A DNA stretch of 64,000 bases from Adineta ricciae (taxonomy: Eukaryota > Rotifera > Eurotatoria > Adinetida > Adinetidae), in assembly GCA_905250025.1 (NCBI GenBank), contig CAJNOJ010000010.1:858964-922963 (forward strand), in the 5' to 3' direction. Numbering within the stretch: position 1 is the first letter of the stretch; every line of letters begins with the position of its first letter. The notes under the pieces were generated by a model that saw nothing but the letters and a program-made list of their open reading frames with translations, was not told the origin of the DNA and did no database searches. Both the position numbers and the translations under genes were made by a program. Positions 20,358 to 35,230 of this stretch are shown here, piece by piece.

Positions 20358-21701
20358 ATGGTAATACTTACGAACTATCAAACGAAAAGTTTTCTGCCTT
20401 ATATCATCATGTGCAATTTGTTATTTATGTCTATTTAGGACAACGACTTCGATAATTTTGATGAGTCTCTTCCTATACTGTCTTTAATGTATGAAACCGA
20501 TATATTATCCCCAAATTATTCCCTACTTCTCGGACCAACATCGGTATTCAACAAGACTGACATATTCTTCTCAACTTCATCCAGTAATCATGTTCATCGA
20601 CATCCACTTCTCTACGGTGCAGCAATCTATGCACTTCTCTTGATCATCGTCGGAACTATTGGTGAGTAAATTATTGCTTCGATTGGCTCATTAATTGTGC
20701 CTTCTAGGTAACATGTTAACAATCATTATTCTTCTTCGAGCCAATCTACGTCAATATACAACAATGCGCTATTTGACTGCAGTTGCATCTGCTGATCTCT
20801 GTTCATTATATTCATGGAATTTGAACTTATTTTATAAGCATTTAATCAATCCTTATCAAAATGATTTAGAAGATTCATCCATATTTACATGCCGTTTAAT
20901 ATCATTTATTGCATTTGTTAGTTTACAGCTTTCATCTTGGTATTTAACATTAGTTAGTGTTGATCGTTGCCTGAATATACATTTCCTCTTTTGGAATCGA
21001 CAATTAGGTCGAGCAGATCGTTCGACCTATATCATTCTTACAATAACCATTATTATTATTTCATTAAATCTTCACTTATTATTTCTAAATGGTTATCGAC
21101 AACCGAACTGTACTCCATTTGCCAAACGTACATGTTATGTGTGTTACGCCCGTCCGAACGATCGACATTACATATTTCCAAAATGGGAAAAAATTCACGT
21201 GATTATATATAACTTTATTCCTTTCTCAATCATGTTAATTTCCAATTGTTTTATTATCCGTCGATCAATATTATCAACTCATCGGCAAAGATCCATGTCA
21301 GCAGTTGATTGCCGAAGAGTTTCAGTGAAAAATACATCAAATCGTCAACGTAAACAGCGGCAATTAACATATATACTTTTATCTGTCACATTTCTATTCG
21401 TTCTCTTGACAACACCGGTTATGATCTACAACGTTTTCTTACGAAACTACTTAAAGGATCGTAAACCATTGAAATACATTGTATTAGGCATACTCTTATG
21501 TATACAATTTACCAGTCATGCGGTAAGTTCGACAGAGATAAGAGAACGAACTCAAATTCTATTTTGATTTTGTAGATAAACTTTTTTGTTTATTGCTATG
21601 GTGCATCGAAATTTCGTCACGAACTAAGTGCATTCTTTTCATCGCTTTTACGACGAAAAGGTCAACTTGTTAATCAAGCAAGAGCAAGTGTTGGTTGTTA
21701 G
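20358..21701 (+). CDS. Rhodopsin-family (class A) G-protein coupled receptor
   Basis: Seven-helix receptor of the peptide-receptor-like group. Coding pieces 20358-20360, 20439-20661, 20708-21522 and 21576-21701 join in frame to 388 residues. The N-terminus carries sequons NYS and NKT. TM1 spans the second intron (AAIYALLLIIVGTIGNMLTIII, including the GN of the TM1 motif). TM2 has ASADLCS. A Cys before TM3 and Cys residues in loop 2 could form the usual disulfide. TM3 ends VDRCLNI, so the DRY motif is DRC. TM6 is followed by the last exon with TM7, where the NPxxY motif reads NFFVY. A basic C-terminal tail has FRHEL, like other class A receptors. The start is placed on an ATG that is the last three bases of an upstream exon; a later in-frame ATG at 20487 is the alternative. 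Ligand unknown. Confidence 0.88.
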
Positions 21702-22357: not shown

Positions 22358-23329
22358 ATGGCTTTAGATAATGTATCTGAATGGAAATACATTAGTAAAA
22401 GAGATATTGGTGTGACATGCGTGGCATTTAGTGGTGGTCAACCAAGAGAAGGAGTAGATATGGGCCCTGAATATGTCCTGAAAGCAAATTTAATTCAACA
22501 ACTTCAAGATATGAATTTCAATGTGATGTTAACAGATAATAAAATTCATACTTATAAAGAATTCTTTCCCGAATCAGATCAACCGATAGGTATTGTTAAA
22601 CGTCCGCGAACTGTTGGTGTTGTTAACAAAATTCTCACGACACAAGTTTATAGTCATGCCAAAGAAGGCCGATTAGCTTTACAAATAGGTGGTGATCATT
22701 CCATGGCTATTGGAACTATCAGTGGTATGTCACGAGCAATTAAAGAACGGTTCGGACGCGATTTAAAAGTTATTTGGGTTGATGCCCACGCTGATATTCA
22801 TACCGTTGAATCAACTGAAAGTGGCAATATACATGGAATGCCTCTATCGTTTCTTCTTGGTCTCGTCAAAAAAAGCATCGAAGGCTTGGATTGGATTGAG
22901 CCTTGCTTAAAGCCGGAAAATCTTACCTACATCGGTTTACGTGATGTTGACAAAGCGGAAAAAGAAACTCTAAAAAAATATAATATAAAAGCTTTTTCAA
23001 TGCATGAAATTGATCGGTACGGTATTGGCCAAGTTGTGGATATGGCTATTGATTATTTATCACAAGACGGCGATGGTCAAGGACCAATACATCTTTCATT
23101 CGATATTGATGCACTTGATCCATCTGTTGCTGCAAGCACAGGCACTCCTGTTCGCGGTGGATTAACGTTCCGTGAAGGTCATTATATATGTGAAGCTTTG
23201 CACAAAACTGGACGATTAGTTGGATTAGACATGGTTGAAGTTAATCCAGCTATTGGTAATCATTGTGAAGACACAGTTACGGTTGGATGCAGTCTTATTC
23301 GAGCAACATTCGGAGAATCTCTGTTGTAA
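22358..23329 (+). CDS. Arginase
   Basis: Binuclear manganese enzyme that splits arginine to ornithine and urea. One uninterrupted exon, 323 residues, the usual arginase length. The metal ligands are all present: GGDHS (about residue 112-116), DAHAD (about 143-147) and SFDIDALDP (about 248-256). The SGNIHG segment contains the serine and the catalytic-site histidine that correspond to Ser137 and His141 of human arginase I, and RDVD supplies the substrate-binding aspartate. The C-terminal LDMVEVNP is also typical. One key position differs: the motif usually DINT reads DIHT, so the residue matching human Asn130, which contacts the substrate carboxylate, is His. The lack of introns contrasts with every neighbouring gene and points to a retrocopy or a transferred gene. 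Agmatinase is less likely because the arginase TxxSGNxHG segment is intact. Confidence 0.93.
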   Translation: MALDNVSEWKYISKRDIGVTCVAFSGGQPREGVDMGPEYVLKANLIQQLQDMNFNVMLTDNKIHTYKEFFPESDQPIGIVKRPRTVGVVNKILTTQVYSHAKEGRLALQIGGDHSMAIGTISGMSRAIKERFGRDLKVIWVDAHADIHTVESTESGNIHGMPLSFLLGLVKKSIEGLDWIEPCLKPENLTYIGLRDVDKAEKETLKKYNIKAFSMHEIDRYGIGQVVDMAIDYLSQDGDGQGPIHLSFDIDALDPSVAASTGTPVRGGLTFREGHYICEALHKTGRLVGLDMVEVNPAIGNHCEDTVTVGCSLIRATFGESLL

Positions 23330-23647: not shown

Positions 23648-25249
23648 CTATTGTGTTTTCGCTGCAGGACGAGCGCGAGGAATATTCAATGGTTGATTTG
23701 CAGGAACGACTGATGATGCATTCGCTACTGTTTCCGATACTACCGGTGCTTGCACACTAGACGAGGATGTTGAAGGGGTTTGTTGAGGAGGAATTGACTG
23801 AAAAAGAACGAGTAGAATATATCTTATTTGAATTATTATCTAAATTCAATTACAGTTGAGATAGGGGGCATGTGTTCTGCGAAACGTTGGTATTCTTGAT
23901 CAGAGAAAACAGGATTGTCTTCAATCGACTAGAAGAAAATACGATTTAGGAAAAGCATTTCATTGTGAATATCTTACCTTCCATCCTTGATCGTTTTTGG
24001 CATCTTTCCCATCGATGCCATGTTCAAATTCTTCGAAGGATAACATTCGATCGTTATTTTTATCAAATTCTCTCATCACGTGCTGTCGCATTCGCTCCAT
24101 TTCTTCTTCTTTCTCAACGGGATCTGCATCTGCTGGACCGTCATGGATCTTCGCTGCCTAGAATCATAAAAGGGAAATGAACGAGAAGGAATTATCTTTC
24201 GTCTTCTGCAAACCTCTTGTAACATAATCGCTTCGATCTCTCCTTCATCTAAAAATCCGTCGCCATTTATGTCATGTAATTTGAAAAATGCTTTCGGCTT
24301 AAATTGGTTTGTTTCGAGCTTATCTACTTTTGTCCAAACTTCTTCCATTTGATCACGACTGCCAGGATGGTTCACTGGACGATGACGTTTCTTCTGTTCT
24401 AGCGCTTCATGGTGTAATTCTTCTAGTCGTTTTCGCTCGTCCTTAGTAAGTTTCTGTAAGAGAGAAACGATAATTGAGAGAAGATGAAGTCGAAACTTAC
24501 AGCTAACTTCGCTCGTCGTTGATATTCTTTACGTAGTTCGTATTGTTTGAATTCTTCTTCCCGTTGACGATCAATTTCATCAAGATCTTTCGATGCATGT
24601 CGGATCAACCGTTCAAGATCAGCTTCATTGAAGGTATCCGAATTGTCATGATCTAGATGTTGAGGAAGTAGTTTTCTTATTTGTTCTCCATTGGGATCAA
24701 TTCGAGCCAATGCATTACGTTGTTTATCTAGAAATAGATATTATCGAACTGATGATTACAAATCTCAATGAGTCTTACCACTTAGAGTGCGAATTTTTCT
24801 TCCGATTAATTGTCTCAATCGCGCCATTTCTCGTTGCTTTGCTTCGTCAAGTTGCGAACGAATATTGTGCTGAACAAGACTCAAATGTTCTGCAATGTTT
24901 CCCGACTGAAATTGAAGAAGATAGTGTTACGGCAAACTTCTGCTCATATCAAATACTTTAATATCATCGGCAGACGCTTTTTCGAGTTTCCTTTTGAAAT
25001 TCGGATCACTTTCCAGAATTTCCACAACTTCTTTTAAATAGCGTCCATATTCAAGCTTGTCTATCTAAAGAAAAATAACAGATAGATATTCGAAATTGAA
25101 GAATTCTTCAAAGATACCATATCATCAGAATCTTCATTATTACTTGAAGGTGCTGGCGCTTTTCCTCGTCTAGCATTTTCTACAACAGGTGGAGCACCAA
25201 CAGCAGCCAGAAGTACACAAACATGTAATAAATAAATTAATAATTTCAT
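23648..25249 (-). CDS. Nucleobindin (NUCB1/NUCB2 family, calcium-binding)
   Basis: Secretory-pathway/Golgi calcium-binding protein. Eight exons (minus) join in frame: 25118-25249, 24957-25064, 24779-24905, 24501-24727, 24214-24453, 23978-24157, 23854-23928 and 23648-23797, about 412 residues (mammalian forms about 420-460). The start MKLLIYLLHVCVLLAAVGAPP is a signal peptide. A charged helical region follows (LEYGRYLKEVVEILESD, then a basic RLRQLIGRKIR part in the DNA-binding-like region of the family). Two EF-hands are clear: DINGDGFLDEGEIE (about residue 260) and DKNNDRMLSFEEFE (about 315). The C-terminus is Ser/Pro/Gln-rich, ends in Gln, and has no KDEL-type signal. Confidence 0.93.
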
Positions 25250-25973: not shown

Positions 25974-26636
25974 ATGATTCGTATATTTTCATTACTTCTT
26001 GTTACTTCAGCATTCATTTATGCTATTGAAAGTAAGTATATGTGTTCAAACTACATATATCACTATGATAGATATTTAGGTGCGACAGATCATAAACCTG
26101 TAGCTGCTGGTGCAAAGGGATGCGCACCAGTCAAGTGTCATGGTAAAACGAAAACATGTCCCTATGGTTATGAAAAAAAGAATGGTTGTGAGATCTGCAA
26201 ATGTCATGATCCGTGTAACCCACAGGGAAAAGTATTGAACGAATTGTTTGTCTTTGCATAGAGGTGATCGGGTTTTGCGTCATTTTAGTCAAGAGTTTGT
26301 GGCAAAAAGGAACGATGTCACGTTGAAAAGAAACCTGATGGAACATTTGGAACTCGTTGCGATGCAGCAGCGAAAAAAACAGGCAAATCTGGAAAATTTG
26401 ATCCTAAAGGTAATTTTGTCCTTGCCATATTTCATCATAAATGAAACTTGTTCGTTATTTCTATCTCGATAGATTGCCATTTACCTTCAGCAGTCGGACC
26501 ATGTAGGGCAGCGATACCACGTTTTTATTATAACACAGCCGCGAAAACTTGTGAGGAATTCACCTATGGAGGATGTCTTGGCAACAAAAATAATTTCAAG
26601 TCGAAATCCGAATGTGAACGTTCATGCAAGCAATGA
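25974..26636 (+). CDS. Secreted antistasin-like/Kunitz protease inhibitor
   Basis: Small secreted protein. Exons 25974-26031, 26080-26231, 26289-26409 and 26473-26636 join in frame to 164 residues. Exon 1 is a signal peptide ([17 protein letters not shown]). Exon 2 carries an antistasin-like Cys pattern ([25 protein letters not shown]). Exon 3 has a short four-Cys module (RVCGKKERC then GTRCDAA). Exon 4 is a complete Kunitz/BPTI domain with all six cysteines, FYYNT, FTYGGC and NNFKS. The residue after the second Kunitz cysteine (P1 site) is Arg, which predicts inhibition of trypsin-like serine proteases. The next gene downstream is a diverged tandem copy with the same first-exon length. Confidence 0.9.
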
Positions 26637-27112: not shown

Positions 27113-28171
27113 ATGTTTCGTCTTTTGTCTTTGATCACTCTCAGTATAGTTTTATTCTATACTATTGGAAGTAAGTTATTTATAATCAAAACATATTCCA
27201 AATCTTGATCGATTTCATCTAGGTACTTTGGCTGCTGAACGATTTGTTACTGGAAAAATTACTCATGATGGTGTCAATCATATCGAAAAAAATTCCAAAG
27301 TTGAAGTTAGATTACAAGATATTAGTCTGATGGACGCAGCAGCAAAAGTAATTGCATTAGTAACTATTACCCAAGCTACCGAATTTCCCATTCCATTTAA
27401 AATCGAATATAATTCAGCAGAGATCAAATCTCATCGTAGTTATTCAGTAGCTGTTCGAATCAATGGTCCTAACAATCAACTTCAATTCATAAATGACATG
27501 AATATACGCGTTGATCTCACTAAACCATCACCAACAGCTGATGTTCCTGTTATTCGAAGTAACTGACTACAACATGTTGATGGGACAGATCTTCAATAAG
27601 AGTTATATTCTTGTAGTCGGTAAAGCCCCTAATATGGTGTCATCAAAAACAAAAGATAAGAAGGTATGCGGACCGGTGAAATGTCCCGGTAAATCCAGAG
27701 TCTGTCCATATGGATTTCAAAAGTTAGATGGCTGTGAAATTTGTAAATGTCACGATCCATGTAATCCACCAGGAAAGGTTCGAATTCACTGGAAAATGTT
27801 CTTCTCAAAAGAGTGTATGTTTATCTTTTAGCCAATACTATGTGGACCACATCAACGATGTTTCGTTCAAAAAAATGCTAATGGTACATTTGGTACACGT
27901 TGTGATACGGTAGCCAAGAAACATACTAAGAAGATAACCGATCCAAAAGGTACTTTGACTTTTCCTTTCAATTAGAATGAATATATCATCGTTCATTTTA
28001 GTCGTCTGTAAACAACCCTCAGTTACTGGTCCATGTAAAGCCTATTTTAAGCGCTTTTATTACAATTCATCAAAGAAATCCTGTGAAAATTTCGCTTACG
28101 GAGGATGTGCTGGCAACGAAAACAATTTTGCCACCAAAGCTGAATGCGAAAAAACCTGCAAACTTCAATAG
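27113..28171 (+). CDS. Secreted chimera: YbaY/YscW-like domain + antistasin-like + Kunitz
   Basis: Exons 27113-27170, 27223-27558, 27617-27777, 27832-27949 and 28002-28171 join in frame to 280 residues. Exon 1 (58 bases, as in the neighbour gene) codes a signal peptide. Exon 2 (336 bases, phase 1 at both ends) codes about 112 residues matching the bacterial YbaY/YscW domain (Pfam YscW): VTGKITHDG, VEVRLQDISLMDAAAKVIA, a FPIPFKIEY strand, HRSYSVAVRI, and a final strand. In bacteria this domain occurs in secreted lipoproteins. Exons 3-5 repeat the neighbour's antistasin-like module ([16 protein letters not shown]), four-Cys module (GTRCDTVAK) and Kunitz domain (FYYNS, FAYGGC), with Lys at P1. 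If the 58-base intron after 27558 were not spliced, translation would stop after two more codons, giving the YscW domain alone. Confidence 0.85.
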
Positions 28172-28474: not shown

Positions 28475-28701
28475 AAGATTGTACTTCACAGGATCATTTT
28501 CTGTAGTACATATCGACAAAACACCCATAGCCAAAGAAGACCCAAACAACCCACGATGACGAGTGGCAGTGGTTCTTCTTGAGCGTGAAGTAGGATGGGG
28601 CTGCTCTCTTCTCGAGAGCTCGGCCTGCTTCCTTTGATGATCGCACCTTGTTGCGTCCTCGTGATGCGGCAAGGAGGGAAGCGACCACATTCAGAGTGGT
28701 T
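28475..28701 (+). ncRNA. U3 small nucleolar RNA, copy 1
   Basis: Box C/D RNA that guides early cleavages of pre-ribosomal RNA. The 5' end AAGATTGTACTTCACAGGATC and box A (GGATCATTTTCTGTAGT at about 28491) match U3 of other animals almost base for base. Box B (GAGCGTGAAG, 28581-28590) and box C (TTGATGATCG around 28635) are intact. The 3' end aligns with the known CTGAGTGGT terminus but reads CAGAGTGGT, so box D is CAGA in place of CTGA. Length about 227 bases, near the animal norm. A T-rich run (TTTTCTTTTT) follows about 11 bases later. GC content is clearly higher than in flanking DNA. Apparent reverse-strand reading frames here are artefacts of the RNA gene. Confidence 0.9.
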
Positions 28702-30658: not shown

Positions 30659-30885
30659 AAGATTGTACTTCACAGGATCATTTTCTGTAGTACATATCGA
30701 CAAAACACCCATAGCCAAAGAAGACCCAAACAACCCACGATGACGAGTGGCAGTGGTTCTTCTTGAGCGTGAAGTAGGATGGGGCTGCTCTCTTCTCGAG
30801 AGCTCGGCCTGCTTCCTTTGATGATCGCACCTTGTTGCGTCCTCGTGATGCGGCAAGGAGGGAAGCGACCACATTCAGAGTGGTT
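30659..30885 (+). ncRNA. U3 small nucleolar RNA, copy 2
   Basis: Identical to copy 1 over the whole RNA by eye, with the same boxes A, B and C and the same CAGA box D. It lies 2184 bases further on in the same orientation. The identity extends about 20 bases past the 3' end through the T-run and then decays. Confidence 0.9.
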
Positions 30886-32755: not shown

Positions 32756-35230
32756 TGCAACAAAGACTATACTGATGCTTGTCGCTATTACGACGAACAA
32801 AATGACAAGCGTAAGTATATGGCACACACACATTTTCTATCAAAGTAACAGGTGTCTTGAGAAATGACAATAGGATAGACAGACATCTCAGCTCTCTTGT
32901 TCACCATAGGTGGGAGACAACAGTCTGATTCGACACAAACCATATTTCGTTTTAGATGTAAAATAATGAATAAGAAAGCAGTGACTTTTGTCGAAATCGA
33001 ATAATGNATCATCTACTCTTTGCTCGATTGATACTCGATAGTCACGTAGTGATGCTTACTTCCGTTCAACAACTGACTTATTTTGACAAAATGTCTTATG
33101 CAAGACTTTTCTTCTATTAACTTCCGTTGTCCTAATGATGACTTGTCGTTTTTCTTTCTTCTAGGTGAATGCTTCGATGCTGACGATGACAATGCTCGTA
33201 TTTGTGGATCAATCACGCCTGATACAGTTTTGTATACACTCTTCCGGGGTAAGATAATAAAATCAGAACAAGAATATGTAACCTGTCCATCACAATCGAC
33301 ATTAATTAACAGTAAAGAAAATCCGGTAGTGCGTGCGTGATAGGATAAAAAAAGAAAACGTCCATAGGCTATGATAATCTACTCTCTAGTGAACAGACAA
33401 AATACTGACCGACATAACACATACATGGAGCAGCTGAATGTTCACTGACCTAGATAAACACAGGAAATTAGCGAAGCTCCCGGCGCCGCCAGCTCGCCCG
33501 ATGAAAGTGAATTTACCACGAACGAAAAAGAAATGTTTGTATCGAGATGGACAAAGTCATCATACATATGTTATAATTCAATTACAAACATGAAGAAATA
33601 TTTGTGAACATGTTGTTTGATTAGATAATGCGGAATCAACTTCATGTCCTTTTGAACAATCATGGTATTTTGACAAAAATCGCCAACTATCGACATCGTG
33701 TCAACCAAAAGCATTTCAACATTGTTCTTCCTCGAATACATTCCAGTTAACGTACAACAGTCGATGTGCAGCAAATCAAAGTAAGAGAGCGATTGATTCG
33801 AAGATATTGTCTCATCGTGTGAAATAGATGTAAGAGCAACATGCTTCGCTCAATTCACTGATGGAAACGTCAATTATGTCGTGGCTCGAAGTCTCGATCG
33901 TCAACGATTCGTCTGTTTTGTAAGTTCGAGACTTTGTCACAAAATATAGTCATTGTCCGGTCGTTTTAGTCATATACGAAAACAAAACGTGATGAACAAC
34001 ATATTGCGCCTAATGAAGTTTATCTATCTGCTGATGATACATGTCGAGATCTACCAACAAGAGAGTCCGCTGTTGTGTTAAATGTGCTTCCAAGTATTAA
34101 CTTTCTCTATATTCTGCGAAATTTTTGTAAACGTGATATCCTATATAGGTTCGTATCAGCATCAATTAGAATCGAATATTCATTTACCCACATGGGTTCA
34201 CGGTCGCTGGTTAACTGTTGGAACAAATGGTTTACATGCCAATGTAGTTTATATCAATAATAGTCAATTGCTTGTAAAAAAGAATAATGATCAAACGGTT
34301 GTTCATGATTTGAAATTCACACGTTTAATGACCAGTAAACGACCCAACGAGCAGATCATTCGCATCAAAGCAAAATCTATGGAACAATGGTAAGAACTAT
34401 TATTCTTTGGGTTTTATGCATAATTAAGTGAAATTTTTAGTTCATCTATCTTTTATTGTATAAAAATTGTCCATCGCTCCTCATTCGTCATCGATCTTTC
34501 AATCGGTAAACGCTCTCTTTCTATCGATTGAAAAAAAATATCATATATTTTAGGTTTCGATGATCACGGATGTAAAGACACTCATTTGCATCAGACAATT
34601 TTCAGTAAGAACTTCCGCTATGAAATCATTCGTTATATATTCACCTTAAACTTCTAGAATCTTCCACGATCTCCAATGTTTCCTGTCCACAAATCGGTAT
34701 TTATAAATCTTCAAGTACTTATCGACCGCTTATCCCTGTTTCCACATGTACAACGGGTGTTTGGATCTTGTCAATTGGATGTGAATCAACAAATAAAAGT
34801 GAATTAACCTTTTCGTCCACATGTCGTCATGAAACTGTACCTGATGTTCAAATCATAACATCAATTAAAGGTGTATGTTTGGCATCATGGCGTACAGACC
34901 ATCGGTTTCAACGTACGATTATTCTTTACGAACAAAACCGAGCTTTTTGTCTGGTAACATCATTTCTCCATTTCTCTTTCCATTATAAAAGTTTCCTTTG
35001 CATAGATTCAACCATTGAAAAGTATGACAGCAAGTTGGATTATATCCGATTCGAGCTGTACACATTTCAGTGCATCATCAATCAATGTTGAGAATAGTCT
35101 CAGATATTCGGATACGTGTGAGCAATACAAGAGAACTTATCAATATTTAACAACAAATCATAGTTCAATGTCGAGAATATCATATTTATTGTTTTGTTTT
35201 TTATTTGTTCTTTTTCTATGCAAGTATTAA
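32756..35230 (+). CDS. Cys-rich cell-surface protein, probably membrane- or GPI-anchored
   Basis: Ten exons join in frame: 32756-32810, 33165-33248, 33625-33780, 33828-33919, 33970-34093, 34149-34389, 34441-34505, 34554-34604, 34658-34953 and 35006-35230, about 463 residues. The first exon, with the signal peptide, is missing upstream. Cysteines are regularly spaced through the chain. The middle has LPTWVHGRWLTVG and YINNSQLLV, like the [LF]P-x-W-x-G-x-W pattern of the invertebrate extracellular DUF7042-DUF7045 families; that match is from memory and tentative. Several sequons are present. The last 20 residues are hydrophobic (YLLFCFLFVLFLCKY), fitting a GPI signal or tail anchor. The intron at 33249-33624 is long and could hide one more exon. 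Function unknown. Confidence 0.65.

Follow-up and report, generated by a model that had tools for sequence, protein, structure and literature searches.

The described systems closest to the gene discussed here are the secretin pilotins and other bacterial lipoproteins of the YscW family (PF09619; PDB 5wec, 2yjl), the multidomain Kunitz/antistasin inhibitors of animals, and the eglin-type potato inhibitor I (PF00280). To these may be added a process, as extracellular modules in animals have been moved by the shuffling of phase-1 exons. A window of 64,000 nucleotides from the bdelloid rotifer Adineta ricciae (GenBank contig CAJNOJ010000010.1, positions 858,964 to 922,963; contig C10 of the searched assembly, which comprises 130.5 Mb in 1033 contigs) contains a tandem pair of protease-inhibitor genes, gene 1 at 25974-26636 and gene 2 at 27113-28171, both on the plus strand, of which only gene 2 carries an exon encoding a YscW domain. 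Gene 2 is probably a duplicated inhibitor gene into whose first intron a YscW exon was shuffled.

Both genes of the pair, and the one homologue on the partner contig C29, resemble the animal inhibitors in carrying an antistasin-like module followed by a six-cysteine Kunitz domain, but gene 2 differs by an N-terminal YscW domain that is absent from the other two. From the bacterial YscW lipoproteins gene 2 differs in being a spliced gene with a signal peptide, in joining the domain to inhibitors, and in having no lipidation site: the first cysteine of its predicted 280-residue protein is residue 149, the bacterial-type lipoprotein cysteine that would follow the signal peptide is thus absent, and the YscW domain therefore cannot be lipidated like its bacterial relatives. 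Pfam searches of 80 bacterial YscW relatives found no inhibitor domain; 11 of these 80 frames (loci L065-L144) match the META domain. Potato inhibitor I is joined to six YscW loci in the rotifer genome, and gene 2 has none. The likeness to phase-1 exon shuffling in animals lies in a symmetric 1-1 module exon placed within a phase-1 intron behind a signal peptide; the difference is that this module belongs to a family whose members described here are bacterial. The two genes are laid out as follows.

25974..26031, plus strand: gene 1 exon 1, signal peptide, 58 bases, ends in phase 1 (sequence check)
26032..26079, plus strand: gene 1 intron 1, 48 bases, the site of the YscW exon in gene 2
26080..26636, plus strand: gene 1 exons 2-4 with their introns, antistasin, four-Cys and Kunitz modules without YscW (Pfam)
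26080-26231, plus strand: gene 1 exon 2, 152 bases
26289-26409, plus strand: gene 1 exon 3, 121 bases
26473-26636, plus strand: gene 1 exon 4, with the stop codon
27113..27170, plus strand: gene 2 exon 1, signal peptide MFRLLSLITLSIVLFYTIG, 58 bases, ends in phase 1
27171..27222, plus strand: gene 2 intron 1, 52 bases, GT-AG, donor 6.8 bits, acceptor 9.0 bits
27223..27558, plus strand: gene 2 exon 2, YscW (PF09619) domain, 336 bases, phase 1-1
27559..27616, plus strand: gene 2 intron 2, 58 bases, weak donor GTAACT
27617..27777, plus strand: gene 2 exon 3, antistasin-like module, 161 bases
27832..27949, plus strand: gene 2 exon 4, four-Cys module, 118 bases, without a Pfam match
28002..28171, plus strand: gene 2 exon 5, Kunitz domain and stop codon (Pfam, 72.9 bits)

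A pyrimidine-rich AG acceptor abuts the ATG at 25974 and likewise that at 27113, which looks like a 5' intron or trans-splicing. The original prediction, made from the letters of the window, had already described the tandem genes, their 58-base first exons ending in phase 1 and the extra 336-base 1-1 exon at the site of the gene 1 intron, all of which was confirmed on the sequence, and the YbaY/YscW patterns that it quoted, PIPFKIEY among them, are present in the exon translation. Its assignment of the exon to YscW was borne out by a Pfam search, in which the translation of 27223-27558 alone scores 66.8 bits (E 2.5e-18) against a curated cut-off of 22.6 and the whole gene 2 protein 63.4 bits. 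The exon protein also matches the sequence of PDB 5wec at E 4.2e-12, and the modelled fold of the domain is the beta sandwich of the secretin pilotins; a single-sequence AF2 model had a pLDDT of 43.7 and was not used. A chance open frame was ruled out by the strength of the Pfam and PDB sequence matches, and contamination by the position of the exon between spliced exons and by the matching gene order of the contig's partner. NCBIfam gave no family, the BFVD viral models no match at E 0.001 or better, and viral contigs searched with the exon protein no match; scanning prokaryote genomes with a single protein yielded no confirmed relative.

The inhibitor modules of gene 2 are those of its neighbor. 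The Kunitz domain (PF00014) passes a cut-off of 21 bits in both proteins, with 75.9 bits in gene 1; that of gene 2 has cysteines at residues 227, 236, 252, 260, 273 and 277 and a lysine at P1, which by the usual rule indicates inhibition of trypsin-like proteases. Antistasin (PF02822; cut-off 21.2) scores 21.7 bits in the gene 1 protein and 17.2, under the cut-off, in the gene 2 protein, for which a six-frame search gave 24.4. Pfam matches in the gene 1 protein are antistasin and Kunitz only, with no YscW.

Comparison with C29 points to the direction in which the tandem pair has changed. At E 0.1 a genome search with the gene 2 antistasin module recovers two relatives, in gene 1 and in the C29 homologue. 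The first exon of the latter likewise measures 58 bases and closes in phase 1, and a 49-base intron leads from it directly to the antistasin exon. The YscW exon is in phase 1 at both ends, the host intron is in phase 1, and the site is empty in gene 1 (intron 26032-26079) as on C29; exon 1 of gene 2 is closer to that of gene 1 (36 of 58 bases identical) than to any other of the eight signal exons with which it was compared. Most likely, therefore, the exon entered intron 1 of the duplicate, and it looks like a gain in gene 2 that followed the tandem duplication. The stretch C29:19000-38800 has no YscW match above chance; a possible relic of the domain at this locus, 22 residues at E 0.067 on the strand opposite to the gene, was taken as chance. 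The C29 neighborhood corresponds to the window in order, with counterparts of the genes at 20695-21564 and ~23963-25064 (the second of which we take to be nucleobindin-like), the U3 RNA and the coding matches at 33016-35227. One U3 gene lies at the C29 locus and two in the window, which suggests that gene 2 and the additional U3 arose by duplication on the C10 side. The two in the window are U3 snoRNA genes located 3' of gene 2, at 28475-28700 and 30659-30884 on the plus strand, each scoring 128.8 bits. An intronless gene at ~22360-23329 (plus strand), presumably arginase-like from its DAHAD motif, has no counterpart in the C29 stretches compared.

Gene 2 is not the only place where YscW is joined to an inhibitor, and the domain combination, which the original prediction took to be new, is not unique to it. 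The genome contains 23 YscW loci, 21 found by the Pfam model and 21 by a search with the exon protein, of which 19 are common; the two seen by the protein search only are weak (C10:692608, E 0.03; C29:201954, E 0.07). A lone bacterial insert is ruled out by this number. In ten of the 23 an inhibitor match follows on the same strand at a distance of 81-447 bases, namely potato inhibitor I in six (L010-L015), Kunitz in three (L016-L018) and antistasin plus Kunitz in gene 2; random scatter of the 23 loci and the 83 inhibitor matches (46 to PF00280, many of them half domains, and 37 to PF00014) would give about 0.015 such pairs within 2 kb. As three pairs are near-copies (L010/L011, L012/L014, L016/L017), the ten linked loci amount to seven distinct genes in three architectures rather than to ten independent events. 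All nine paralogues of gene 2 begin with a signal-peptide exon, continue with a YscW exon of 342-372 bases that is flanked by two phase-1 introns, and end with one or more inhibitor exons. Their introns, 48-63 bases long, were placed by eye and checked for frame and phase by script, and Pfam found both domains in all six spliced models, of the nine, that were submitted. In L018 both domains lie in a single open frame of 238 residues, so that the join is visible without any intron. For the three near-copy pairs the YscW exon has dN/dS ratios of 0.14, 0.22 and 0.11 and the inhibitor portion 0.21, 0.20 and 0.19, and these low values indicate that both halves are kept by selection there. Compared with L010, L012 and L013, the YscW exon of gene 2 has no stop and no frameshift, with pN of 0.44-0.48 and pS of 0.64-0.77, at or near saturation.

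The origin of the exon was approached by phylogeny. Bacterial loci were found with patterns from one Vibrio pilotin and two rotifer exons in a collection of prokaryotes only; 80 of 117 were kept, mostly from Vibrio, Pseudomonas, Phenylobacterium and Mesorhizobium, and 25 of these 80 were used in the trees. One tree of 41 rows includes 16 rotifer rows, among them the long-branched L015 and L020; in a second tree of 40 rows these two are left out and C4:510081 is added, and L023, L026-L029 and C21 are in neither. In the 40-row tree the YscW exon of gene 2 groups with the five rows linked to potato inhibitor I (88/97), closest to L012/L014 (96/84), and not inside the 25 bacteria; C4:510081 stands apart on a very long branch, with the other 14 rotifer rows together at 84/86. 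The bacteria form one side of a branch in the 41-row tree (89/88) and not in the 40-row tree. Of the original proposal that a horizontally acquired domain was inserted by exon shuffling, the second part is supported, given a symmetric, frame-keeping exon at the phase-1 intron of gene 1 and of the C29 homologue, and the direct receipt of a bacterial domain by gene 2 is not supported as stated, given 23 loci and a tree that places the exon with rotifer copies. Direct entry of a bacterial gene fragment into gene 2 would explain why the best bacterial match of the exon nearly equals its best rotifer paralogue (66.6 vs 68.2 bits), and constraining gene 2 with the 25 bacteria, at a cost of 11.85 log units relative to its placement with the rotifer exons, is disfavored without being rejected at 0.05 (AU p 0.072); with nine other loci in the same exon form, it is nonetheless very improbable. 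Probably the exon came instead from the genome's own YscW-potato-inhibitor-I genes. How YscW came to be in the genome at all is a separate matter. The rotifer copies are many, intron-bearing and very diverged, and none falls inside the sampled bacteria, which would also be expected if YscW were an old animal or eukaryotic family, never horizontally acquired, and the exon move an ordinary case of animal module shuffling; this is a serious possibility, if somewhat short of an even one.

Several points weigh against gene 2 as a duplicated inhibitor gene with a spliced-in YscW exon taken from its potato-inhibitor-linked relatives. Tree support for the source is moderate and the branches are long: in the 41-row tree the grouping of gene 2 with L012/L014 has support of only 93/31 and the exons linked to potato inhibitor I do not come together, and constraining gene 2 with the Kunitz-linked exons costs 1.34 log units and is not rejected (AU p 0.40). 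Loss of YscW from gene 1 and C29, instead of gain in gene 2, is a less simple course of events. With no second copy of gene 2 in the assembly, selection on the gene itself is unmeasurable. Splicing of the YscW exon into the mRNA is a prediction from the sequence, and the targeting role of its domain a proposal. The donor at 27559 (GAA|GTAACT) scores 2.6 bits, below 17 of the 18 training donors, and 21% of the GT dinucleotides in the window reach at least that score; the other junctions of gene 2 score inside the training range. Were the intron at 27559-27616 retained, the frame would stop at the TGA at 27564-27566 and yield a YscW-only protein, and secreted-looking YscW genes without an inhibitor do exist in the genome (C4:510081 and L020), making such a product of gene 2 conceivable. 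The exon might accordingly be a cassette or a leaky 3' end, giving two or three products (the full-length protein, a form that skips the exon and has the gene 1 plan, and YscW only), as skipping would keep the reading frame and an in-frame stop lies two codons beyond the weak donor. The phase-1 arrangement shared by the nine paralogues and the lack of AATAAA or ATTAAA within 27500-27700 speak against this possibility, which we consider rather unlikely and which refines the account of a shuffled exon more than it contradicts it. The same stop and weak donor could reflect two overlapping genes, one of YscW only (exons 1-2) and the other, from 27617, an antistasin/Kunitz remnant or a separately trans-spliced gene; bdelloid messages are trans-spliced, and the acceptor at 27616 could serve as those that abut the start codons of genes 1 and 2 might. 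Yet the exons from 27617 onward lack their own signal peptide despite their cysteine-rich modules, no poly(A) signal lies between, and the join of 27558 to 27617 is in phase 1, as it is in the nine paralogues, so that this arrangement is improbable.

If the shuffled-exon account of gene 2 is right, an antistasin/Kunitz gene on C10 would have undergone tandem duplication, and intron 1 of one copy would have received a YscW exon that is in phase 1 at both ends and most closely resembles the exons of the YscW-potato-inhibitor-I genes. The product would presumably be a secreted serine-protease inhibitor composed of a signal peptide, a pilotin-like beta-sandwich YscW domain, and antistasin-like, four-Cys and Kunitz modules, in which the inhibitor modules would block serine proteases and the YscW domain, at the N-terminus and without catalytic activity, might act as a carrier or targeting module that keeps the inhibitor at a particular site or partner. 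Such a gene would show a domain known chiefly from bacteria moving between animal genes as a symmetric exon, while the tandem copy and C29 still preserve the empty site, and the repeated pairing with different protease-inhibitor folds suggests a job for YscW in extracellular protease control or defense. A more speculative proposal, by analogy and with little likelihood, is that a pilotin-type domain of bacterial ancestry became, in this animal lineage, a mobile phase-1 module at the front of secreted protease inhibitors, was taken up by three unrelated inhibitor architectures, and aims the inhibitors at microbes or their secretion machinery, for example by binding secretin-like targets in the manner of its bacterial relatives. 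Constraining the nine inhibitor-linked rows together (L015 left out) costs 0.36 log units and is not rejected (AU p 0.43), so that three apparent captures may be partner swaps within one lineage.

The remaining members of the family in this genome vary in other ways. Among the potato-inhibitor-I loci without YscW, the six examined (on C45, C14, C71, C132, C69 and C235) have no YscW in the 330 bases upstream, nor do the Pfam model and exon-protein searches match anywhere on those contigs. An intron inside the inhibitor is absent in L013 and present in L010, L011, L012, L014 and L015; about 4 kb separates L013 from L015, which are on opposite strands (L060, C81:254000-263500). L019, L021, L022 and L024 lack an evident signal peptide, are not followed by an inhibitor match, and are apparently intracellular YscW proteins. 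On C21 (L148, 1185-3962), a 925-residue open frame contains two individually passing YscW stretches (64.1 bits in total) and further similar-looking repeats, and is preceded by a separate frame with a signal peptide and a charged region.
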